From Novipirellula galeiformis (GTDB lineage: Bacteria > Planctomycetota > Planctomycetia > Pirellulales > Pirellulaceae): a stretch of 64,000 bases of DNA. Made by a program: the position numbers and the translations under genes. The stretch covers positions 1 through 64,000 of the forward strand of contig NZ_SJPT01000010.1 in NCBI RefSeq assembly GCF_007860095.1. The letters run 5' to 3'. The number at the start of each line of letters is the position of its first letter. Positions within the stretch are counted from its first letter, which is position 1. This document shows positions 831-12,855 of this stretch, piece after piece. The notes beneath the pieces were generated by a model. It had not been told where the DNA came from and did not search any database. It was given only the letters and a program-made list of their open reading frames with translations.

Positions 831-2630
831 CTACAAATCGAAATTGACTCGCTTGCGTTTGCCACCGCGACCAATCATCGCATAAGTCCAGTCGGTCTGA
901 ATCCACTCCTCCCCACCGGCGAATTCACGAATCATCCAGCCTCGCCTTGCCGCCGGCGTTCCGGCTGGCGGCGAACGCCGACGCCGTCGCACATTGTCCG
1001 GATTGACGAGCATGACCTCAGGCTTCGCTGGCAACAGCTGATAAAAGTAACCGTCCGCAGATAACTCATGGTAACGCAAGTCGACCTTCTTCTTGTCGGT
1101 CCAGGCGGCATTCTCACCCAACGCATCGATCAAAAAGCGTTTGGTTAACCAATCGACGCGGCCGACTGCGGCAGCGGTTTGTCGATGGTCCTGCCGAAAC
1201 TCAGCCAAGACCGTGATCAGCGATTCCCAGCGTTGGATCACCGTGGTGGCCTCCCCATGCCACTGGTCAGAGGTGCCGTCAACGAACTGCTTGGCTGCCG
1301 CCAAAATCTTTCGCTGAATCTCCAGTGCTGATAATTCACCGTGCGAGGTTGGCACTTGCGACACCAAGTTCCAATCGCTGGCGATACGATGGATCGACGC
1401 CACGCCCTTTTTCAAAATGGGCAACTCAGCTACCGCGCCTGCTTCGATCATGTCGAGCACGAGAGAAACCGAAGCAAATTTGACGTACTCGGCATGGTCT
1501 GCCATGTTCGAATCAGACAGTCCGATCTGTAACCGTTGTCGCCGAGCAAGCATGCCTCGCGTGGAGACCAACGACAAAAACGTCTTGGCACAATAGTGAG
1601 CCAACCAATGTCCGAATACAAACACGGGACGCTCGCCACGAAAACCACCCATATCGGTGATGGTGTCAATCGCCATCGCCTTGGCACTCAGGCGATAACG
1701 TCCGTCATGGTCCAGTGAGCCTGAACCACACAACGCCAACCGTGACGCGAGCAAGGCAGATAAGTACCGCCGCTGCTTCCGAAACGCGACGTGGCGGACG
1801 ACGAAGCGAAGCACGAACAAGGTCGGCAAGTGAATCAAACGCAATAGATTGACGACCGTCCAAGTCACCCAACGCGGTACCGAGCCAAATGCCATCCTAA
1901 CGTCTTGCCCCTGGTCCGCGTCGCCCCAATCGCCATCGTCGCTGTCGAATCCCTCGTCATCCACAACGGACTGGTTGTCTCCGTCGCTGGCCGATCCTCG
2001 TCGTCGCCGGGCGATCCATCCCGCAAACACCATCGCCCACAACAGCGGCATGGACACGACCAGATTGACGACTTGCATCGACCACAACAACAGAACAAAG
2101 ACGCGGTAGATCACGAGCCACACACCGCTCGCCACCTCGGCTTCGTAATTCTCTTGGCATCCATAAACATGCCCGAGCGCATCAGCGCTATTTTTTAGTA
2201 CACGAAGATCGTAACTGGTCTCGGCAGCGGCCGTTGCTTCGGCAACCAATTGATCAATCGAACGCTGGCAGGCGAGCAGTTCGTCGGGGCTGCGAACCTC
2301 GGGCGTCGCGATCTCGATCAAACCACCAGGCGAGTCGTACATCAACGGATGGGATTCAAACGTAACCGCACCTCCGTTTGCTAAAAACAGTTGATCTTGA
2401 TCGAAAACTCCTTTTGCAGTGGGCTGATCACGGCGAATCGCCTCACAAATTTGTTCGTAGACAAACAGTGACGCAGGCAAATCCTCTGTAGATAGATTTT
2501 GAGGATCCGCCACCAACGTTGCATACTCCGTTTCCATCCCCATCAACCGCGACACCAAAGGGGTGGTGCGTCGATAAGCCCGTGAGGACGCCGTGTTGGG
2601 ATCGTGCGAGGAGGAGGGACGGGAATTCAA
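831..2630 (-). CDS. Dop/PafA-family carboxylate-amine ligase with membrane-spanning insert
   Basis: A 599-residue member of the Pup ligase/deamidase family, a glutamine-synthetase-like fold that in actinobacteria attaches or removes Pup using ATP. Visible family blocks are GMETEYA (31-37), FLANGGAVTFESHP (82-95) with EIATPE (106-111), KNSADALGHVYGCQENY (146-162), SRLALCGSG (296-304) and IGLSDSNM followed by SVSLVLDMIEAG. Between the ENY block and the SRLALCGSG block, which are near neighbours in PafA and Dop, lie about 125 extra residues. These carry two hydrophobic stretches (about 170-205 and 250-285) separated by an acidic, Asp-rich linker. The residue aligned with the catalytic Asp of PafA appears not to be Asp (VTFESHP). 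No Pup or proteasome genes are nearby. Met30 or Met32 are alternative starts. Family membership is firm; substrate is unknown. Confidence 0.85.
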   Translation of the reverse strand: MNSRPSSSHDPNTASSRAYRRTTPLVSRLMGMETEYATLVADPQNLSTEDLPASLFVYEQICEAIRRDQPTAKGVFDQDQLFLANGGAVTFESHPLMYDSPGGLIEIATPEVRSPDELLACQRSIDQLVAEATAAAETSYDLRVLKNSADALGHVYGCQENYEAEVASGVWLVIYRVFVLLLWSMQVVNLVVSMPLLWAMVFAGWIARRRRGSASDGDNQSVVDDEGFDSDDGDWGDADQGQDVRMAFGSVPRWVTWTVVNLLRLIHLPTLFVLRFVVRHVAFRKQRRYLSALLASRLALCGSGSLDHDGRYRLSAKAMAIDTITDMGGFRGERPVFVFGHWLAHYCAKTFLSLVSTRGMLARRQRLQIGLSDSNMADHAEYVKFASVSLVLDMIEAGAVAELPILKKGVASIHRIASDWNLVSQVPTSHGELSALEIQRKILAAAKQFVDGTSDQWHGEATTVIQRWESLITVLAEFRQDHRQTAAAVGRVDWLTKRFLIDALGENAAWTDKKKVDLRYHELSADGYFYQLLPAKPEVMLVNPDNVRRRRRSPPAGTPAARRGWMIREFAGGEEWIQTDWTYAMIGRGGKRKRVNFDL

Positions 2631-2939
2631 TAGGGCGACTTTATGAGAATCGAGGGGGAGCGTTTGAGAGCGGGCTTATTGTAGGAGCCAAATTCGCTGC
2701 GAGAAAGTGCGGCGTGTAGCGACGTTTTGTAGATCAACCCGCGACAACGAAAAATTCGGGTAACGCAACGCAACCAATCCCTACGACGTGACTTTGATCC
2801 CTGCGTGCGATGCGATTCATCTTCGATACCCCGCTGGGGAGACGACATTTCCCAAACTGAAAAACGGTCTCCAGCCGGCTACGATCTCGTACAATAAGGG
2901 GGTACGTCTTATCTACGTTCGCCTTCAAAGGAATCTACG
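2631..2939. other. Divergent intergenic region
   Basis: About 309 bases between the divergently transcribed Dop/PafA-like gene and the 2-oxoacid decarboxylase gene. No ORF here looks real. Apart from the -10-like hexamer at 2890-2895 I see no structured element. Confidence 0.6.
2890..2895 (+). promoter_or_regulatory. Candidate -10 element of the decarboxylase gene
   Basis: tacaat (one mismatch to TATAAT) in the context ctcgtacaat, 45 bases before the ATG. The same ctcgtacaat context occurs before the TPR-AAA+ gene (9313-9318) at the same distance. No clear -35 element is visible. Confidence 0.4.
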
Positions 2940-4637
2940 ATGAGTCAAGCCTCTACGATCATTCACACCGATGAACCGCCCCGCCGGGCTACCGCGAACG
3001 TCACGATAGCACAGTATTTGATCCGGCGATTACAGGACTACGGCGTTGACGATATGTTCGGGATTCCGGGGGATTATATCTTGGCGTTGTACAGCGAATT
3101 GGAAAAGAGTCCGATTCGCATGATCGGGTGCACGCGAGAGGATTGTGCGGGCTTTGCAGCGGACGGCTACGCCCGGGTCCGAGGGATGGGGGCCGTTTGC
3201 GTCACCTACTGTGTCGGTGGGTTAAGCATTTGCAACTCCATCGCCGGAGCGTACGCCGAAAAGTCGCCCGTGGTCGTACTGACGGGTTCGCCAGGTTTAA
3301 AAGAACGCAACACCGGGGCCTTGTTGCACCACATGGTCCGCAATTTCCGAACACAGTACGACGTTTTCGAAAAGTTCACGATCGCGGGAACCGAGCTCAA
3401 CGATTCCTTAACCGCGTTTTCAGAAATCGACCGAGTGCTCGATGCATGCGACCGCTACAAGCGACCGGTTTACATCGAGTTGCCACGAGACATGGTCAAC
3501 GTGATCCCGCCGGTGGCACACGGATACACCGGCGCCGGTTTCCAGCACAACCAGGAAGCGACGGACGAAGCGATTCGCGAAACGGTGCTGCGATTAGCCA
3601 ACGCCCAGAACCCGGTGATCTTAGCTGGGGTCGAGATGCACCGTTTCCGTTTGCAAGATCAATTGATTCAATTGGCGGAATCGACGAACATGCCGATCGC
3701 CACCACGATGCTTGGTAAAAGTGTCGTAAGCGAGCGGCATCCGTTGTTCATCGGATTGTATGAGGGAGCGATCGGGGACGCGGAAGTGACCCGATTCGTC
3801 GAAGAAAGCGATTGTGTGTTGATGTTGGGCACCTTTTTAACGGACATCAATCTTGGCATCTTTACGGCAAAATTGGATCCTGGCCGCTGCATCTTGGCGA
3901 CCAGCGAGACGCTGCGGATTTCTCACCATCACTTTCATAACGTTGATTTGAAGGCGTACCTGGCCGGCTTAATCGAGGCCGCCCCCACGACCACCACGCG
4001 GGACACGACGCATTTAGTCGCGCGGACGAGTACGGAGACAGCGGAGGAAGCGGCGACCGAATTGCTACAGACAAGTTGGATGGTTCGTCAACTGAACCAG
4101 CGTTTGGACGCGGACACCATCGTTATCACTGACGTAGGGGATTGTTTGTTCGCCGCGACGGAGTTAACGATTCATGATCGCAGTGAGTTTTTGAGTCCGG
4201 CGTACTACACGTCGATGGGATTCAGTATCCCGGCAGCACTAGGCGCGGCGACCGCCAAGCCAGATCATCGGATCGTCGTGCTTGTGGGCGATGGTGCCTT
4301 TCAAATGACCGGTCAAGAATTGAGCACGTTGATCCGCCAAGGTCACAATCCTATCGTCATCTTGTTGGACAATCATGGGTATGGCACCGAGCGTTACTTG
4401 CACGAAGGGGAGTGGAAGTACAACGAAGTGGCCAAGTGGAATTATGGCGAATTGATGAAGGTCTACGGGCGAGGCATAAGTCACTTGGTCTCCACCAAAG
4501 CGGAGTTCAACAACGCCTTGGATGCCGCGTGGAATCAAACAGACTTGCCGCATCTAATCCACGCCAAACTGGAGGAGAACGACGCCAGTCAAACGCTGCG
4601 CAAACTGGCCGAGCGAATGAGCAAAACGGTTGGTTAG
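2940..4637 (+). CDS. Thiamine-diphosphate 2-oxoacid decarboxylase (pyruvate/indolepyruvate decarboxylase family)
   Basis: A 565-residue cytoplasmic enzyme of the pyruvate decarboxylase family, converting a 2-oxo acid to an aldehyde and CO2. The catalytic residues of the family are all visible: the Asp of GIPGDY, the cofactor-activating Glu of TREDCAGFAADGYAR, the His pair of LLHHMV, and the Glu of GYGTERYLHEG. The thiamine-diphosphate/Mg motif runs from VGDGAFQMTGQE to LLDNHGYG. Length matches the family. The gene stands alone, preceded by a -10-like hexamer and divergent from the Dop/PafA-like gene. The sequence does not settle whether pyruvate, phenylpyruvate, indolepyruvate or a branched-chain 2-oxo acid is the substrate, so no gene symbol is given. 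Confidence 0.9.
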   Translation: MSQASTIIHTDEPPRRATANVTIAQYLIRRLQDYGVDDMFGIPGDYILALYSELEKSPIRMIGCTREDCAGFAADGYARVRGMGAVCVTYCVGGLSICNSIAGAYAEKSPVVVLTGSPGLKERNTGALLHHMVRNFRTQYDVFEKFTIAGTELNDSLTAFSEIDRVLDACDRYKRPVYIELPRDMVNVIPPVAHGYTGAGFQHNQEATDEAIRETVLRLANAQNPVILAGVEMHRFRLQDQLIQLAESTNMPIATTMLGKSVVSERHPLFIGLYEGAIGDAEVTRFVEESDCVLMLGTFLTDINLGIFTAKLDPGRCILATSETLRISHHHFHNVDLKAYLAGLIEAAPTTTTRDTTHLVARTSTETAEEAATELLQTSWMVRQLNQRLDADTIVITDVGDCLFAATELTIHDRSEFLSPAYYTSMGFSIPAALGAATAKPDHRIVVLVGDGAFQMTGQELSTLIRQGHNPIVILLDNHGYGTERYLHEGEWKYNEVAKWNYGELMKVYGRGISHLVSTKAEFNNALDAAWNQTDLPHLIHAKLEENDASQTLRKLAERMSKTVG

Positions 4638-4969
4638 CGAACCGTTTTCGAATCGTTTCCCCTCCGCCAAACCCCGATGCATCGCCACCGCCGGTTTGGC
4701 TTATTGGGTGACGATGCTCGCGTAGATCAACTCACGTAGATCAACTCACGTAGATCCGCTCGCTTAGGCCGGTTCGCGTCGATCGGCCCAGGGGTGGCTC
4801 ACTACGCGTTTCCAACGCGATCTCCACCTAAGCACTCGTCCCTTCCTAACCCAATGAAGTGTTTTTATCGTTTCTTGCGAAGTTATTCGCTTTCGGGGGC
4901 TCTGGAGGCATGTAGCCTTAAATCTCTGTCGCCCCCCAATGCCCAGTTTCCCTACCGGTGTAGCGTCTC
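4638..4969. other. Intergenic region with a 14-bp tandem repeat
   Basis: About 332 bases with no convincing gene. At 4721-4762 lie three tandem copies of a 14-bp unit: two identical (cgtagatcaactca) and one diverged. No terminator with a T run is visible after the decarboxylase gene. Confidence 0.75.
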
Positions 4970-7900
4970 ATGTGTGACTTCCGTCTATTGGCTCGACGAT
5001 TTTGTTCGATGGTTACGCCACTATTTTTGTTGGTCGCACTCGGAACTCCCCCGTGCACGCGGTCCACGGCATACGGCGACGAAGCGGCAATCCCCGAGGT
5101 GCTGAAACCGTGGCAGGACTGGGTCACTTGGGACACGACGAATCGTGACTGCCCGAAGTTGTACAACAACGCTGATGAGAGCATCTGTGTTTGGCCCTCG
5201 ACACTCGAGTTGACGGCGGACGAACGGGGAGGTTCCTTCAAGCTTCGTGTTCAAAGTTTTGAGGACACATGGGTGACGTTACCAGGGACTCCCTCGATCT
5301 GGCCAACCAACGTTCGCGTCGATAACGAACCGGTCGTGGTGGTCCAGCGTGATGGCTCCCCCGCGATCAAGTTGGCGAAAGGGAGCAGCGTGTTGTCGGG
5401 GGAATTCCTTTGGGATTCCATGCCACAACGCATCCACATTCCCAAAGAAATCGGCATGCTGACGCTTCGCGTGTCAGGCACCGAGGTAGCCAATCCGACC
5501 TGGGACGCTCAGGGGGAGGTTTGGTTGAAGCGATCGCGTAGTGAGGCGACCGATAAAGATCTGCTAACGCTGCAGGTGTATCGCAAGATTGAAGACGGAA
5601 TTCCATTGTGGTTGCGGACTCGCATCGAAATCACGGTTTCGGGTAAGAGCCGTGAGGAATCACTCGGTTCGATCCTTCCGTTAGGATGGCAACTGGCGAC
5701 GGTGGAGAGTCCGATCCCGGTCGCGGTCGACGAACTCGGGGCGATCAAGGCCCAGGTCCGAGCAGGCAAGTGGACGATCACTCTCAATGCATTTCGCACC
5801 CATGACGCAACGGACGTTACTTTCGCGGCCAACGCCAACCCGTTGGTCGCAATGGAGTTAGTCGGATTGCAAACGGATCCCGATTTCCGGGTTTCCCAGA
5901 TCGAAGGGCTGCCGATGGTCGACGCTTCGCAAACGACGTTCCCAGCGGACTGGCGAGGCTTGCCGGTTTATCAATGGGACGTCAGCAAACCATTTTCGCT
6001 CGTTGAAAAGATGCGAGGCATGGGAGCCAAGACACGCCAAGGCCTCCATATCACTCGGCATCTGTGGCTAGATGAAGACGGCAACTCGTTGACTTACCTC
6101 GACCATCTTAATGGACAAATGCAACAAATTTGGCGTTTGGATGTGGCCGATGGTCATGATCTTGGCGCGGTACGAGTCGATGGCGAAGGGCAACTGATCA
6201 CCGTTAATCCCGCTACAGGCGTTAGCGGCAGCGAGATCCGTCGTCGCAACTTACAAATGGAAGCGGTTGGGCGTGTCCCGCTCGATGACGAATTATCGGC
6301 CACCGGTTGGGACGCGAATGCCGAGTCACTTAAGGTGACGTTAACCACTCCGCCTGGTTGGCGTGTGTTTGCGGTTTTCGGAGCGGACCAGGTCCGCGGC
6401 GATTGGTTAACGGCATGGTCGTTGTTGGACCTTTTTCTACTGCTAGTGTTTTCGCTGGCGGTGTTCCGCTTGTTTGGGTTTGTAGGTGGGTTTGTCGCGT
6501 TGGTGGCGTTCGCGTTGTCCTACCATGAGCCCGGTGCACCGCGAATTACGTGGTTGTTATTACTGATGCCGATTGCACTGCTGCGGGTCGTCGGGGAAGG
6601 AACGCTGAAGAAATGGATCACGGTATGGAAAGCCGTGACGACCGTGATCCTGTTGTTTTGCTTGGTTCCTTTTATCGCGACTCAGGTGCAAAACGTGCTT
6701 TACCCTCAACTCGAACCCCAAGGCATGTCGTACGGCAGTCGCGGATTGTTCGTGTGGAGTGGCATCGGATCGAAACGTGATTATCAGACGAAGTCAGTGA
6801 CTGAATTTGACTTGGTCGAATCGTCCGGTGGATATTTGGGGAGATCCCAGTCCCGTCGTAACGAACGCAAATCCAAATCATCGCAACGCCAGTCCGCCGA
6901 CGAATCAAATTTGAATTACGACCCTCAGGCCATGATCCAAACCGGTCCGGCTCAGCCACAGTGGCGTTGGAACGATGTGGTATGCATTTGGAACGGCCCG
7001 GTTGCAGCGGAGCAAACAATCCACCCCGTGCTGGTCTCGTTGACGGTGAACCGTGTCATCACGGGTGTGCGACTTGTGTTGTTGATTCTTTTGGCGGCGA
7101 TCTTGCTTCGCAAGCGAACCCCCCCATGGCCTTGGGCGGGATGGAAAATCCGAAAAGCCGCGGCGGCCGCCTTACTGGGACTGACACTCCTGCCGGCTTC
7201 TGCCTCCGCTCAAGAAGGAAACAGCAACGATGAGAATGCGAAGCCGGCGTCTGCTGCGGCTGAGAAGCCCGAGTCTTATCCTCAGCCAATTCCTTCAGCA
7301 GAGATGCTCCGCACCCTTCGCGAGCGATTGTTGAAGCGTTCGGATGCATTTCCCAATGCGGCCGACATCCCGGCGGTGGAGCTGAAGATCCTAGACAACC
7401 GGTTGACCATGAACGTCACGCTGCATGCGGCGGCAGATGTCGCGGTACCTTTGCCAGGACGTTTGCCAGCGTGGTCTCCCATCTCGGTGACCATGGACGG
7501 TAACAATGACGTGACGGTTTCCCGTCACGAAGGCTACGTTTGGATCGTGGTCCCCAAAGGGATTCATGACATCACGGTGGAAGGCACGCTCGGCGACGCA
7601 GCAGAATGGGAATGGACGTTCCTGTTGAAACCACGGCGTGTATCGATTGAGGCTCCGGGATGGAAAGTCACCGGGCTCGGTCCCAATCAAGTGCCCGCCG
7701 ACCAAGTATTTTTCGCCAAAGAGCAAGCGCCGAGCGACGAAGCGGCGGCGTACGACCGCACCGCCTTCAATACCGTGGTGGTCATCGATCGAAAACTCGA
7801 AATCGGCTTGGTTTGGAAGGTTCACAATACCGTAACACGCCTTTCTGCCACAGGAAAAGCGATTTCACTTGAGGTTCCGCTCATCGAAGGCGAGAACGTG

Positions 7901-9133
7901 CTCAGCTCGGGACGAGAGGTCAAAGACCAATCCATCGACGTACAGATGGGGGCAAACCAAGCCCAATTTTCCTGGGTGAGTGAACTCCAACCCACCCCTG
8001 CAATCAAGTTGACGGCCGCATCCACCGATCGCTGGGTCGAGCGATGGCATTTAATCACCTCACCGATTTGGAACGTTTCGATCTCGGGGCTACCCCCGAT
8101 GTTTGCGGTGAACCAAGAGGCCTTGGTTCCGATCTGGAAACCGTGGCCGGGCGAAACCGCCACGATCCAATTCAGTCGCCCAGCAGCGGTCGTGGGTGAT
8201 ACCGTCACGGCGCAACGTGTGAACCTTTCGACCACACTTGGCGATCGTCGACGCACCAGCGAAATGGAGCTCGAACTTGAGTGCAGTTTGGCAAACGATT
8301 TCGTAATTGCCCTTGAACCTGAGATTGAGATCACTTCATTGACGCTTGATCAGCAAGCGATTCCCGTTCAGCGAGACGGAGCGAATTTGATCATTCCAGC
8401 AAGACCGGGACGGCAAACGGTAGCCATAGGGTGGAGTACTGCGAAGCCGTTGCAGATGACGGCGCGCTCCTCGTTAGTCACGTTGCCAGTAGATGCTTCG
8501 AACGTGACCACCACGATGGTGATGCCCGAGAACCGCTGGATCCTGTGGGTCGACGGCCCGCTGCGTGGGCCGGCCGTCCGATTTTGGACCATCTTGGCGG
8601 TGGCGATCCTGATCGCATTTGTGTTGGGCAGTCTCCCGATGTCACCGCTGAACCGGCTCGAGTGGGTGTTACTGTCGATTGGTTTGACCCAGGTGCCTTT
8701 GCCCGCAGCGATGATCGTGGTGGGGTGGTTGTTCTTGCTAGGGTGGCGAGGCGAGCATCCCTTGGATCGCCATTACCATTGGCGTGATTACTTGCTGCAA
8801 GGCTTGATCGTGTTGATGACGCTGATCTCGCTTGTCATTTTGTTCATCGTGGTGGGCGAAGGGCTGCTCGGACATCCCGATATGTTCATCGCGGGCAACC
8901 AATCATGGGGCAGCGAATTGCATTGGTTCACCCCACGAACGGGAGCCGAGCTGCCGCTGACTCGAGTGGTCTCGATCTCGGTGTGGTTCTACCGACTGTT
9001 CATGTTGGTTTGGGCATTGTGGTTAGCTGCAGCATTGTTGCGCTGGTTGGCGTGGGGGTGGAAGCAATTCAGCAAGGTGTCCGAGCGTGAGCAAGTATTG
9101 GAGGCCACGTTGAGCACGGAGGATGCGAACTAA
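4970..9133 (+). CDS. Large multi-spanning membrane protein of unknown function
   Basis: A 1387-residue protein I cannot assign to a named family. It opens with a signal-like segment (hydrophobic core PLFLLVALG; Met14 is an alternative start). A long extracytoplasmic beta-rich region follows to about residue 475, then several membrane segments (about 478-580) and another near 694-712. Residues about 728-748 read like a second signal peptide (ALLGLTLLPASASAQ), followed by a second beta-rich region to about 1200 and a cluster of membrane segments (about 1203-1303 and 1335-1360). The internal signal-like segment suggests a fusion of two secreted/membrane proteins. It precedes the TPR-AAA+ and TPR-membrane genes on the same strand with a 229-base gap. 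Coding reality is supported by length and strongly biased composition. Confidence 0.85.
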   Translation: MCDFRLLARRFCSMVTPLFLLVALGTPPCTRSTAYGDEAAIPEVLKPWQDWVTWDTTNRDCPKLYNNADESICVWPSTLELTADERGGSFKLRVQSFEDTWVTLPGTPSIWPTNVRVDNEPVVVVQRDGSPAIKLAKGSSVLSGEFLWDSMPQRIHIPKEIGMLTLRVSGTEVANPTWDAQGEVWLKRSRSEATDKDLLTLQVYRKIEDGIPLWLRTRIEITVSGKSREESLGSILPLGWQLATVESPIPVAVDELGAIKAQVRAGKWTITLNAFRTHDATDVTFAANANPLVAMELVGLQTDPDFRVSQIEGLPMVDASQTTFPADWRGLPVYQWDVSKPFSLVEKMRGMGAKTRQGLHITRHLWLDEDGNSLTYLDHLNGQMQQIWRLDVADGHDLGAVRVDGEGQLITVNPATGVSGSEIRRRNLQMEAVGRVPLDDELSATGWDANAESLKVTLTTPPGWRVFAVFGADQVRGDWLTAWSLLDLFLLLVFSLAVFRLFGFVGGFVALVAFALSYHEPGAPRITWLLLLMPIALLRVVGEGTLKKWITVWKAVTTVILLFCLVPFIATQVQNVLYPQLEPQGMSYGSRGLFVWSGIGSKRDYQTKSVTEFDLVESSGGYLGRSQSRRNERKSKSSQRQSADESNLNYDPQAMIQTGPAQPQWRWNDVVCIWNGPVAAEQTIHPVLVSLTVNRVITGVRLVLLILLAAILLRKRTPPWPWAGWKIRKAAAAALLGLTLLPASASAQEGNSNDENAKPASAAAEKPESYPQPIPSAEMLRTLRERLLKRSDAFPNAADIPAVELKILDNRLTMNVTLHAAADVAVPLPGRLPAWSPISVTMDGNNDVTVSRHEGYVWIVVPKGIHDITVEGTLGDAAEWEWTFLLKPRRVSIEAPGWKVTGLGPNQVPADQVFFAKEQAPSDEAAAYDRTAFNTVVVIDRKLEIGLVWKVHNTVTRLSATGKAISLEVPLIEGENVLSSGREVKDQSIDVQMGANQAQFSWVSELQPTPAIKLTAASTDRWVERWHLITSPIWNVSISGLPPMFAVNQEALVPIWKPWPGETATIQFSRPAAVVGDTVTAQRVNLSTTLGDRRRTSEMELELECSLANDFVIALEPEIEITSLTLDQQAIPVQRDGANLIIPARPGRQTVAIGWSTAKPLQMTARSSLVTLPVDASNVTTTMVMPENRWILWVDGPLRGPAVRFWTILAVAILIAFVLGSLPMSPLNRLEWVLLSIGLTQVPLPAAMIVVGWLFLLGWRGEHPLDRHYHWRDYLLQGLIVLMTLISLVILFIVVGEGLLGHPDMFIAGNQSWGSELHWFTPRTGAELPLTRVVSISVWFYRLFMLVWALWLAAALLRWLAWGWKQFSKVSEREQVLEATLSTEDAN

Positions 9134-9248
9134 CGGAATCATACGGCGGGTCGCGTTGGCTGAGCGATGGAGTGCCGCGAAGTGCAACGGTTGGAGCAAC
9201 GAGGGTGGCGAATGATTCGGTGCCCTCGGGTGGTGGAACAGCTCGTTA

Positions 9249-9290
9249 CCCAGCCACGTACGCCCAGCCACGTACGCCTAGCCACGTACT
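9249..9290. repeat. 14-bp tandem repeat, three copies
   Basis: cccagccacgtacg at 9249-9262 and 9263-9276, then a two-mismatch copy at 9277-9290. It sits in the gap before the TPR-AAA+ gene, upstream of its putative promoter. Confidence 0.9.
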
Positions 9291-9312
9291 AGGAACGCCA
9301 CTGCGCAGCTCG

Positions 9313-9318
9313 TACAAT
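9313..9318 (+). promoter_or_regulatory. Candidate -10 element of the TPR-AAA+ gene
   Basis: tacaat in the context gctcgtacaatcgg, 45 bases before the ATG, matching the context before the decarboxylase gene. The -35 element is not obvious. Confidence 0.4.
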
Positions 9319-9362
9319 CGGCGAGACTCATTGACCCCCGACCAACTCGCCCAGGATCGATC

Positions 9363-10706
9363 ATGGCGCCCGAAGACGAAGCACTCAACGGACTTCGTGA
9401 GGCCTTGAAGGTTTCGCCTAACAATCTGCCGCTCCGAGTTCACCTCGCCCAGACGTTGGTCAGTTTTGGCCGTTTCGAAGAGGCCGCGGCGGAGTATCGC
9501 AACGCACTGAGCCTTTCGCCTGATCATGGAGAGGTCAAATATGGATTGGCGTCGGCCTACCTCTCGCTCGGCGAGCAGAGCAAAGCCATGGTGATCCTAG
9601 AAGATCTTTGCCGCTCGGAATCGGCGCCTGCCAAAGCGTTCATCGTGCTGGCCAAATTGTTATTGGGCGAAGGCAAAGTGCGTGACGCGGTGATTCAGTA
9701 CAAGGAGGGGATCCAACGCGATCCCGCCTGCGCCGATCCGATACTCGGAGATCAATTGGGCGTGGGTGAAGCGTATCAAGACGGCGACGTGGTCGAAGGG
9801 CGGAGTCGCGAATCGAGCCAGCGTTCACCCGAAATCGTTGTCTCTGAAATTGAACGTCCCAAGATCAAGTTTGATGATGTCGGAGGGATGGACAAGCTAA
9901 AAGAAGAGATCCGGCTAAAGATCTTGTACCCGCTTCAACATCCGGAAATGTACGAAGCCTACGGAAAAAAAATCGGTGGGGGGATTTTGATGTACGGTCC
10001 CCCCGGATGCGGAAAAACCTATTTGGCGCGCGCCACCGCTGGCGAATTGGGAGCTGGCTTTATCTCCGTCGGCATCAGCGATGTGTTGGACATGTGGACG
10101 GGCCAAAGCGAGCGCAATCTTGCTCAGATCTTTGAGCAAGCCCGCGTTAACCAACCCTGTGTGTTGTTCTTTGACGAAGTGGACGCACTCGGCGGCCGCC
10201 GCAGCGACATGAGCAGCGGTGCCGGGCGACACGTGATCAATCAATTTTTAGCGGAGATGGATGGCGTCAAAAACTCCAACGAAGGGGTGTTGGTTTTGGC
10301 TGCGACCAACGCTCCTTGGCACGTTGACCCGGCATTTCGTCGCCCTGGGCGTTTTGATCGAGTGTTGTTTGTCCCGCCACCGGACAACGATGCGCGGGCG
10401 GAGGTGTTGCGGATCCATTTGAAAGGGAAACCACAAGACTCAATCGATTTTCAGCAAATCGCTAAGAAGACGGCTGAGTTTTCGGGGGCCGACATGAAAG
10501 CGGTCGTCGACCAAGCGATTGAAGAGAAATTACGCATTGCGTTGAAGGAAGGCATCCCAAAACCGCTGGTCACGAAAGACTTGATCGGGGCAGCGAAGTC
10601 CCTCAGCCCAACGACGCGTGAGTGGTTTTCAACGGCGCGGAATTACGCGATCTATTCCAACCAAGGCGGCATCTACGACGACGTGTTAAAGTATTTGAAT
10701 CTATGA
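9363..10706 (+). CDS. TPR-containing AAA+ ATPase
   Basis: A 447-residue protein with N-terminal tetratricopeptide repeats (about 1-125), a short linker, and one AAA+ module of the Cdc48/FtsH-like classical clade. The AAA+ module shows FDDVGGMDKLKEEI (about 170-183), Walker A GPPGCGKT (212-219), Walker B VLFFDEVDAL, a second region with GRR, sensor-1 AATNAPW, and the arginine finger segment FRRPGRFDRV. It probably forms a ring that remodels or unfolds proteins, with the TPR part choosing partners. It lacks the coiled coil and OB domains of the proteasomal ATPase ARC/Mpa and the protease domain of FtsH. Its stop overlaps the next start (ATGA), so the two products are probably made together. Confidence 0.9.
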   Translation: MAPEDEALNGLREALKVSPNNLPLRVHLAQTLVSFGRFEEAAAEYRNALSLSPDHGEVKYGLASAYLSLGEQSKAMVILEDLCRSESAPAKAFIVLAKLLLGEGKVRDAVIQYKEGIQRDPACADPILGDQLGVGEAYQDGDVVEGRSRESSQRSPEIVVSEIERPKIKFDDVGGMDKLKEEIRLKILYPLQHPEMYEAYGKKIGGGILMYGPPGCGKTYLARATAGELGAGFISVGISDVLDMWTGQSERNLAQIFEQARVNQPCVLFFDEVDALGGRRSDMSSGAGRHVINQFLAEMDGVKNSNEGVLVLAATNAPWHVDPAFRRPGRFDRVLFVPPPDNDARAEVLRIHLKGKPQDSIDFQQIAKKTAEFSGADMKAVVDQAIEEKLRIALKEGIPKPLVTKDLIGAAKSLSPTTREWFSTARNYAIYSNQGGIYDDVLKYLNL

Positions 10707-12109
10707 ATGCACATTTACAACGCGCCTTGATGCTGTTGGACCAAGCTCGCTATGAGTTAGCCATCGATGAACTCCGACAAGTCTTGGCGTCGGAGCCCAA
10801 TCACGCAGTGGCACATGCCGTGCTGGCGATCTGTTTTTCCAACACAAAAAACGATAATGAGGCACAACGTGAAGCCGAGTTGGCGATTCATTTAGCTCCC
10901 GATCAAGCGTTCGCATTCTATGCGCAAGCCTTGGTGATGGCGAACCGCAACCAGTTTGCTGCGGCCCAAACCGCGATTGAGACCGCGATCGGATTGGATC
11001 CCTACAACCCCAATTTCTTTGCACAACTCGCTCAAATCCGGTTCAATCAAAGCGATTGGAAAGGGACGCTCGAGGCTGCCCAAACCGGGCTTTCTCTCGA
11101 TGCCGAGTCCGCCGCGTGCACCAATCTACGCGCCATGGCGTTGGTGAAGTTAGGACGCAAGATCGAAGCGCAAGAGGCGATCGGCGCGGCACTCAAACGC
11201 GCACCCGAAGACGAGTACGCGCACGCTAACATGGGTTGGACGCTGCTTGAACAAAATCAACCTGAGAAAGCGATGGAGCATTTTCGCGAATCGCTCCGTT
11301 TGAATCCCGAAATGGATTGGGCGCGTGCTGGAATCATCGAAGCGATGAAGTCGCGTTACTTCCTTTATCGGATCATGCTGAATTGGTTTCTGTGGATGCA
11401 AAAGCTTCAACAGAAAGCTCAGTGGGGTGTGATTATCGGCGCCTACATTGGTTTTCAGTTGCTTTCGGGATTTGCCGCTAAGCATCCCGAGTGGTCTCCG
11501 TTGCTGCAACCGTTGCTGATTCTGTATATCGCGTTTGCCTTGATGACTTGGGTGGCAAGCCCGCTGTTCAACTTGGTATTGCGAACCAGCCCGTTTGGTC
11601 GTTTAGCGTTGTCCAAGGAACAAATTCGCACGTCCAATTGGGTCGGCGTTTGCGTGCTCAGTGGCATCATGTTGGTGGTCGCCTATTTTGCAACCGGCGC
11701 CGCTGCGTTGCTTGGATGTGCGTTGGCGTGCGTCTTGTTGATACCGCCACTAGGAGGCATTTATCGCTGTCAACAAGGTTGGCCACGAGCGACGTTGTCA
11801 CTGGTCACCATCGCCCTCGGCTTTATGGCTGCGGTGGTGGTTTCCACACTGCTGGTAAGCCATTGGCTCACCCATGACATCCGTCGACCGTTGCAAGGGA
11901 TCGGCCTGCTGTACTTCACCCCGCTGTTGTATGGATCGATCGGCGCCCAATTCTTGACCAACGCGTTGGTTTCGGCGACCCCCAAACGCGGCACCCATAC
12001 GGAAAAGAAGGTTTGGGTGATCGGCGGCACCCTGCTTGGAATCGCTGCGGTTGCAACGTGCGCCTTCATCGCATTGATTGTCACTATCGGGATCATGGAT
12101 CCCACATAG
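10703..12109 (+). CDS. TPR protein with C-terminal multi-spanning membrane domain
   Basis: A 468-residue protein. The ATG at 10703 overlaps the stop of the AAA+ gene (ATGA), which decides the start; an in-frame upstream extension lies inside the neighbour. Residues 1-220 are TPR repeats (for example YELAIDELRQVLASEPNHAV and PEKAMEHFRESLRLNPEMDW). From about 243 onward there are six or more hydrophobic segments, ending in VAGT-like Gly-rich helices. Translational coupling suggests that it docks the TPR-AAA+ ATPase on the membrane. No enzymatic motif is visible. Confidence 0.85.
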   Translation: MNAHLQRALMLLDQARYELAIDELRQVLASEPNHAVAHAVLAICFSNTKNDNEAQREAELAIHLAPDQAFAFYAQALVMANRNQFAAAQTAIETAIGLDPYNPNFFAQLAQIRFNQSDWKGTLEAAQTGLSLDAESAACTNLRAMALVKLGRKIEAQEAIGAALKRAPEDEYAHANMGWTLLEQNQPEKAMEHFRESLRLNPEMDWARAGIIEAMKSRYFLYRIMLNWFLWMQKLQQKAQWGVIIGAYIGFQLLSGFAAKHPEWSPLLQPLLILYIAFALMTWVASPLFNLVLRTSPFGRLALSKEQIRTSNWVGVCVLSGIMLVVAYFATGAAALLGCALACVLLIPPLGGIYRCQQGWPRATLSLVTIALGFMAAVVVSTLLVSHWLTHDIRRPLQGIGLLYFTPLLYGSIGAQFLTNALVSATPKRGTHTEKKVWVIGGTLLGIAAVATCAFIALIVTIGIMDPT

Positions 12110-12204
12110 TCATGCCGTTGCGGTGCTGATTGGGATCAAAACAAGCCCCGCCGGCAACATCGGTTGAAAGGCCTCCAACGCGTTTGGGGATCCCCGTGCA
12201 ACCT

Positions 12205-12855
12205 CTATTTCCCAGATCGCTGCGCGGTCAACAGGATCAAGCGATTGTCTTTAAAGAACTCGGTCGCTTGTGCCGTGATGGTCCATTGGTTGTCGTTCGC
12301 ATCGGCACGAATTGCGTTCACAACACGTTCGAGAACAAGATTCTCGACGAGCTCATAGGACTTCACTTCGGGGTTGGACGGTTTTTCCGAGGCGGTTTCT
12401 GCGAACGATCGAAGGGACGATTCGAAGACGACCGATGCAGCGTTGCTGCGTAGTGATTCTCGAGACTCAATGTTGATTTGGCGGAGGCTGTTGCCTGGCA
12501 AAACAGCCTGCGTCCCTTTTTCCTGGACGGGCGTAAACAACCATCGCCGCCCCGACATGGATATCTGGCCGGTTATCGGGGGGATGACCGATCCATCTCG
12601 CAACTGGTGACGAAGAGAATTGTAGTGTGTGTTCTCGGGATGATTGACCTTCCCGCCGGGCGACAAGGAATCGAGTGCGGAAGGCTGGCTCACGCGATCG
12701 GAATCGCCGTCGGGTACCACGCCAGCCGTGTCACTGGTAGAGCGGTCTGATGCGACGACATGTCCATCGATCGCAACCACAAACAGCGGCGTCAACACAG
12801 CGATGAGGGACGTCGTTGGGATCAAACACCCCATCAAGTAACGCGAAAAATACAT
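12205..12855 (-). CDS. Hypothetical secreted or membrane-anchored protein
   Basis: A protein of about 216 residues that I do not recognise. The start is set at MYFSRYLMGCLIPTTS, giving an N-terminal hydrophobic segment (LIAVLTPLFVVAI) and an extracytoplasmic remainder rich in Ser, Asp and Arg, ending LILLTAQRSGK. The reading frame stays open to 13038, but that stretch includes a 14-bp tandem repeat (12968-13009) and reads like non-coding DNA, so the long start is unlikely; Met at 12897 is another option. It is convergent with the TPR membrane gene and follows a small membrane-protein gene on the same strand. Confidence 0.6.
   Translation of the reverse strand: MYFSRYLMGCLIPTTSLIAVLTPLFVVAIDGHVVASDRSTSDTAGVVPDGDSDRVSQPSALDSLSPGGKVNHPENTHYNSLRHQLRDGSVIPPITGQISMSGRRWLFTPVQEKGTQAVLPGNSLRQINIESRESLRSNAASVVFESSLRSFAETASEKPSNPEVKSYELVENLVLERVVNAIRADANDNQWTITAQATEFFKDNRLILLTAQRSGK

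Follow-up and report, generated by a model that had tools for sequence, protein, structure and literature searches.

A PafA/Dop-like Pup ligase with a predicted membrane insert and an unlinked Pup in Novipirellula galeiformis

The window analysed here is a stretch of 64,000 nucleotides from Novipirellula galeiformis, positions 1 to 64,000 of contig NZ_SJPT01000010.1 (C10 below). The genome is called G000, C1 is another of its contigs, and the assembly has a listed completeness of 100% and a contamination of 4.14%. Near the start of the window, on the minus strand, lies a gene for an enzyme of the PafA/Dop family. It stands 830 bases from the contig end, so its downstream side is visible only in part. 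The first-pass annotation described it as a PafA/Dop-like ligase split by a membrane-spanning insertion with an apparently changed catalytic Asp, and proposed that such a member without Pup or a proteasome nearby would be a new form of this chemistry. The features of the gene are given below. Site conservation was counted at 44 sites in 30 sequences, the window's own and 29 relatives, with the degraded copy of genome G208 counted apart.

831..2630, minus strand: Pup ligase (PafA/Dop-like) with predicted membrane insert, 599 residues, TTG start at 2630, stop codon ending at 831
2526..2540, minus strand: GhExE motif (GMETE, residues 31-35) of the first ATP/Mg strand, with E33 and E35 in 30/30 sequences
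2355..2357, minus strand: Glu92, opposite PafA Asp64 in a hidden Markov model alignment to 4b0t, Glu in 30/30 sequences and in G208
2148..2156, minus strand: QEN of core strand 4, the [HQ]x[NH] motif, right before the insert by alignment
1770..2144, minus strand: insert, residues 163-287 (125 residues), no Dop/PafA counterpart in the alignments
1989..2126, minus strand: long hydrophobic helix, residues 169-214, with RRRR at 208-211 (AlphaFold2 model with DSSP; Kyte-Doolittle peaks 1.98 and 1.71)
1920..1988, minus strand: acidic linker, residues 215-237, predicted disordered (predicted local distance difference test score below 50 at 219-239)
1791..1874, minus strand: second predicted helix, residues 253-280, amphipathic (moment 0.41, mean hydrophobicity 0.23)
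1512..1529, minus strand: QIGLSD of core strand 6, the [QH]x4D motif, with D373 in 30/30 and Q368 in 28/30 sequences

The family assignment made at first pass is borne out by the profile search. The Pfam model PF03136 (Pup_ligase) matches residues 28-583 with E 2.4e-70 and 238.2 bits, against a gathering cut-off of 25, and positions 1-439 of the 441 in the profile are covered. The protein has the glutamine synthetase (GS) fold core of Dop and PafA, and the 50 entries listed by VIA-align are by title all Dop, PafA or other GS-superfamily enzymes. It is the sole PF03136 match in a profile search of the whole genome. The same N-terminus opens with V (GTG by our ORF rule), one residue shorter, in two genomes of the same genus.

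The motifs GhExE, [HQ]x[NH] and [QH]x4D, as defined by Iyer et al. (PMC2588565), are all found, as GMETE, QEN and QIGLSD. Most of the 44 listed sites are invariant or nearly so; in the strand-4 motif, site 159 is Q or H in 29/30 sequences and site 161 is N in 27/30. In wild-type PafA (4b0t) it is the Asp at chain residue 64, which we take to be the catalytic residue, that faces Glu92, and 4bjr has Asn there. The Asp to Glu change is real, as first suspected, and it is family-wide; as a hallmark of the window protein it is rejected. The local Dop alignment begins at D94, opposite a later column, so that Dop does not test this position; D94 most likely activates the water, according to PMC8599861. 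The spacing of the catalytic acids is 59 in the window ligase, compared with 48 in PafA and 86 in Dop. According to PMC7947786, the Dop-loop has 37 residues and planctomycete sequences align partially with it. In the window ligase the full Dop-loop is absent, and the spacing of 59 indicates that most of it is missing.

In comparison with Dop and PafA, the shared blocks can be aligned as far as YGCxENY and resume from about residue 282. The insert between them follows QENY, directly after core strand 4, which is where Iyer et al. described a four-transmembrane-segment insertion in ligases of Plesiocystis and Rhodopirellula (PMC2588565). The first-pass annotation placed it where Pup ligases have a short connection. 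This holds in comparison with Dop and PafA, but within this branch the insert is normal. It is found in every one of the 47 sequences aligned, the window's own plus 46 relatives, with a length of 95-168 residues, and is therefore not private to the window protein. As the membrane-inserted type was already described in 2008 from Rhodopirellula and Plesiocystis (Iyer, Burroughs and Aravind; PMC2588565), the window protein belongs to a known ligase type.

The insert is predicted to span the membrane. Three of its 19-residue windows exceed a Kyte-Doolittle value of 1.6 (170-188, 1.98; 189-207, 1.71; 260-278, 1.67), and the Eisenberg mean hydrophobicity is 0.64 at 169-188 and 0.72 at 188-207. Hydrophobic segments are found in the insert of all 47 sequences, three in 24 of them, two in 17 and one in six, while 44 have no such segment elsewhere. 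The window protein is among the three exceptions; its core stretch 388-406 (1.62) passes the cut-off too, so the cut-off alone is not specific. The acidic linker between the hydrophobic stretches is there as annotated, with 12 acidic and 5 basic residues over 208-251. Its acid richness is lineage-specific, the medians over the 47 sequences being 3 and 4. Pro269, in the second helix, is kept in all 47.

The same insert could lie outside the membrane, as a soluble or peripheral helical hairpin used for dimerisation or partner binding. The second helix is amphipathic with Arg at 264, 275 and 279, the hydropathy cut-off flags the core as well, and AlphaFold2 gives an uninterrupted first helix of 46 residues, long for one crossing; in the predicted model of a 37% identical relative the corresponding helix has 49 residues with one break. 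Given the Eisenberg means of the first helix and the presence of hydrophobic segments in every insert of the family, we regard this alternative as unlikely. Four short membrane segments, a further candidate, are unsupported by the two predicted models.

Beside the ligase there is, as first noted, neither a Pup nor a proteasome gene in the visible flanks: no Pup-like open reading frame (ORF) was seen, with only 830 bases visible downstream, and no small conserved ORF was recognised among the ORFs listed for the window's clade. The same upstream genes, of 157-159 and 503-573 residues, recur in 8/22 loci, all from close relatives.

However, the reading as a Pup-less new chemistry is rejected, as the search of the genome for a Pup-like partner was successful. 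The Pfam Pup model PF05639 is blind to planctomycete Pups; it finds nothing over its gathering cut-off in 60 genomes, even in G008, G011 and G022, which have a clear Pup beside the ligase. Our profile A2 contains only Pups ending in GGE, and A4 contains the adjacent Pups including the xGE Pups of sister lineages. A2 gives nothing credible in G000 and only weak matches, 0.075 or worse, in the window's clade; in hindsight three of these (G001:C745, G151:C73, G212:C75) lie on true Pups, as does a fourth, G002:C17 at 1.37. With A4, run on 12 genomes, a full-length match is found in G000 on C1, positions 1166184-1166276, minus strand, with E 2.6e-6. It was detected because A4 included the xGE Pups of sister lineages.

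Counted from the first in-frame Met, the G000 Pup has 58 residues, the true start being uncertain, and it ends in DGE-stop. In length and C-terminus it agrees with the Pups described by Iyer et al., which have 50-90 residues and end in G[EQ] (PMC2588565), and it falls below the PF05639 gathering cut-off. A4 finds one match in each of seven further genomes of the clade, those in G147 (0.006) and G151 (0.052) being weak by E-value alone. All eight unlinked Pups share a related tail before the stop, SNTGHDGE in G000. Over 31 compared codons, at places chosen by protein likeness, nonsynonymous divergence (pN) is lower than synonymous divergence (pS) in 28/28 pairs. The neighbours of the unlinked pup vary among three subgroups of the eight loci. 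Among the titles and abstracts listed in paper searches we met no report of an unlinked Pup in this group, which does not prove that none exists.

In many relatives the ligase is preceded, at a distance of some tens of bases, by a short ORF ending in GE-stop. Among 80 named loci, our filter found the ligase ORF in 72 and dropped eight; an adjacent Pup, for which ends of GE or GQ were allowed, is present in 48/72, and all 48 end in GE. Twenty of the 72 (L147-L166) have no adjacent Pup. They include Rubripirellula, Stieleria, Roseiconus, Rhodopirellula maiorica, CA13 and K23_9, and the window groups with them. Adjacency is thus found in 0/20 named loci of the window's clade and in 48/52 of the other loci examined. 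The remaining four are L169 and L202, which begin at a contig end, L218 with an odd frame, and L211.

In a ligase tree of 75 rows, from which L161, L213, L216 and L218 were excluded (split, unread letters, partial, or odd frame), the 21 intact ligases without an adjacent Pup form one clade with bootstrap 100 and SH-aLRT 98. Beside it in the tree stand Rhodopirellula europaea and G013, both with an adjacent Pup. A single relocation of pup accounts for this pattern. The G208 copy, first labelled with this clade, is placed in another part of the tree, its branch length being 4.38 and its position unsure; because of it the label of no adjacent Pup needs two changes on the tree. Among neighbour families, built from ORFs of at least 90 residues at 32 ligase loci, none is shared by more than six loci; three occur in 6/32 and one in four. 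Ligases of this type with an adjacent Pup ending in GGE also occur in metagenome-assembled genomes (MAGs) labelled Myxococcota (L224) and Acidobacteriota (L217), and L211 is a ligase of this type from a Pseudomonadota MAG; the labels of these MAGs outside Planctomycetota may be wrong.

The pairing of ligase and Pup was then counted in 199 Pirellulaceae genomes, using profile A6 (from DNA references) and PF03136, with the two genome sets taken as identical. At E <=0.01, both genes are found in 89 genomes, Pup alone in none, the ligase alone in nine and neither in 101. Pup matches are thus present in 89/98 ligase-positive and in 0/101 ligase-negative genomes (Fisher p about 1e-46, not to be taken literally, as the genomes share ancestry and some of them contributed to the training of the profile). 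With the cut relaxed to E 0.1, partial matches to the Pup profile appear in six ligase-negative genomes: G307, just above the cut at 0.0101 with an internal stop, and G204, G282, G020, G229 and G297 at 0.048-0.096.

Among the ligase-only genomes, G159, G245 and G270 have an adjacent ORF ending in GE that was missed, so the profile misses some real Pups. In G292 the contig starts at the gene, G263 has a fragment, G357 is 85% complete and G208 has the degraded copy; G278 and G289 have only other, low-scoring PF03136 genes. In 59 genomes no more than 1.5 kb separates Pup and ligase; in 30 the script counts them as apart, but one of these (G005) is a contig break, leaving 29 genomes with an unlinked Pup. 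All 29 unlinked Pups end in GE, and the 21 from genomes outside the training set all end in DGE-stop. In seven genomes ligase and Pup share a contig, at linear distances of 0.6 to 7.4 Mb. Two genomes with two ligases fit the pairing: in G008 each has its own adjacent Pup, and G318 has one ligase with an adjacent Pup, one without, and an unlinked Pup.

Losses in two relatives bring up the possibility that the window ligase is itself a decaying gene without present function. G208, which shares its genus code with G147 and G151, has an open frame of 594 residues (L095, 2474-4258, minus strand) that has lost E35, E106, D373, H521 and other residues and, as said, has a very long branch. No credible Pup was found there (A4 best 0.70, none in a wider scan), an uncertain absence as the assembly is 93% complete; together this is consistent with a lost pathway. 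In G001 (L061/L161, 2236-4063) the ligase is split over two reading frames, by sequencing error or because the gene is broken; the L161 anchor is in its second half, and its N-terminal flank is seen in the same contig as L061, a copy that was excluded from A3. A Pup is present in G001. In the window copy, the listed motif sites are intact, 71% identity to the G002 copy extends across residues 2-598, and the Pup of G000 is conserved, so decay is very improbable.

The proteasome-fold peptidase model PF00227, which also covers HslV (that of E. coli was detected in a control), has no match anywhere in G000. It matched 35 of 40 genomes, G000 being one of the five without, and in G001 and G002 the matches are only weak (2.0e-8 and 7.7e-9). 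In a search for the Mpa/ARC ATPase with TIGR03689, AAA matches occur in 24/24 genomes, four of them in G000, and none exceeds the cut-off; a Corynebacterium glutamicum control was positive. According to Iyer et al., the Plesiocystis and Rhodopirellula ligases are likewise unlinked to proteasome genes, and pupylation might serve membrane proteins (PMC2588565).

Taken together, we consider it probable that the window encodes a membrane-anchored Pirellulaceae Pup ligase which has one unlinked Pup and works without a proteasome. The GS-fold catalytic core would face the cytoplasm, and the helical hairpin, leaving the core right after strand 4, would anchor the enzyme within the membrane or on its surface. 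The enzyme may use ATP and Mg to phosphorylate the C-terminal Glu of the remotely encoded Pup; no deamidase would be needed because this Pup already ends in GE. Transfer of the activated Pup to an amine would follow, the likeliest acceptor being a lysine on a protein in or near the membrane. Within this clade, pup appears to have moved away from the ligase gene, yet both are retained in the genome. The proteasome would not be involved; the tag probably regulates, or some reader may recognise it.

Three points favour the ligase direction: a single enzyme is present, no Pup deamidation is needed and most of the Dop-loop is missing. The reverse, a Dop-like membrane-bound depupylase or amidase that removes Pup or hydrolyses a Pup-like amide, is kept alive by the likeness of the protein to Dop. 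Alone it would have no substrate, as no second PF03136 gene that could carry out conjugation was found in G000, and the GE ends of all adjacent and unlinked Pups make deamidation unneeded. Furthermore, NCBIfam scores put PafA slightly above Dop, and in PMC7947786 single-copy planctomycete homologues serve as an outgroup to both. We therefore judge this direction improbable. That the acceptor is instead a non-protein amine of the membrane, such as an aminolipid head group in the manner of Atg8 lipidation, seems less probable still. The hydrophobic insert beside the active-site strand, and a genome with neither a proteasome match nor a second PF03136 match, may hint at it, but known relatives modify protein lysines.

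Several points weigh against the membrane-anchored ligase. The window protein scores well short of the equivalog cut-offs for PafA (TIGR03686, 125.8 of 551.3 bits) and Dop (TIGR03688, 119.6 of 492.3 bits), and its top structural and sequence match is Dop, not PafA. The first helix, 46 residues long and carrying RRRR close to its end, fits a single membrane crossing poorly, and AlphaFold2 gives two long helices compared with the four segments of Iyer et al. As the pup gene is unlinked, the evidence for a partnership consists of co-occurrence and of the adjacent position of the two genes in relatives. At L211, 4 kb upstream of the ligase contain no Pup-like ORF that we could find, and we found no experimental work on any member of the family.

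Compared with known systems, the closest are the ligases of Iyer et al., which share the GS-fold, a hydrophobic insert right after strand 4, a genomic Pup and the lack of proteasome linkage. Their Pup is adjacent to the ligase, whereas here it is on another contig (C1, with the ligase on C10); four membrane segments were counted there, whereas two predicted models show two long helices here; and a linked gene for a membrane protein was reported, whereas no neighbour family recurs widely here. With PafA (4b0t, 4bjr) the window ligase shares the fold, GhExE, the strand-4 and strand-6 motifs and the lack of a full Dop-loop. It differs in the predicted membrane insert and in Glu for Asp64, no proteasome or Mpa was found, and its Pup is unrecognised by the Pfam model. 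With Dop (4b0r, 7oxv) it shares the fold, with the highest structural and sequence score. Unlike Dop, it has no full Dop-loop and carries the insert, no ligase partner paralogue was found, and its Pup needs no deamidation.

Other, low-scoring PF03136 genes occur, two each, in G011:C75, G025:C394, G271:C200 and G289:C833, and also in G226:C930 and G278:C159; those of G011 are accompanied by a match resembling the proteasome ATPase, below cut-off. At locus L081 (G163:C433:58000-73154), 2038-12563, two further Pup_ligase homologues are clustered with genes for a ThiF/E1-like protein and for an AAA ATPase that in NCBIfam scores best against the proteasome ATPase, and with a weak JAB match; the JAB and proteasome-ATPase scores are both below cut-off. 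G163 also has a membrane-type ligase with its own Pup. Such an E1/JAB set next to two PafA/Dop-like genes seems to merit separate investigation.

What is added to the type known since 2008 is a relocated Pup, the co-occurrence of Pup and ligase, and a genome, G000, without a proteasome-fold peptidase match. Inspection beside the ligase alone would have implied that the clade of Stieleria, Rubripirellula and Roseiconus has no Pup, and the unlinked Pup can be tested in cultured strains of these genera. Experiments have established pupylation as a way of directing proteins to the proteasome. It is conceivable, although we hold it only tentatively, that about half of the sampled Pirellulaceae have a proteasome-free membrane Pup system of one enzyme and one Pup, with proteins or even aminolipids of the membrane as acceptors, in which pupylation marks proteins or lipids for localisation or signalling instead of degradation. 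Retention of both ligase and Pup in 89 of 199 sampled genomes of one lineage, with a ligase that looks adapted to the membrane and no proteasome match in G000, would show another use of pupylation.
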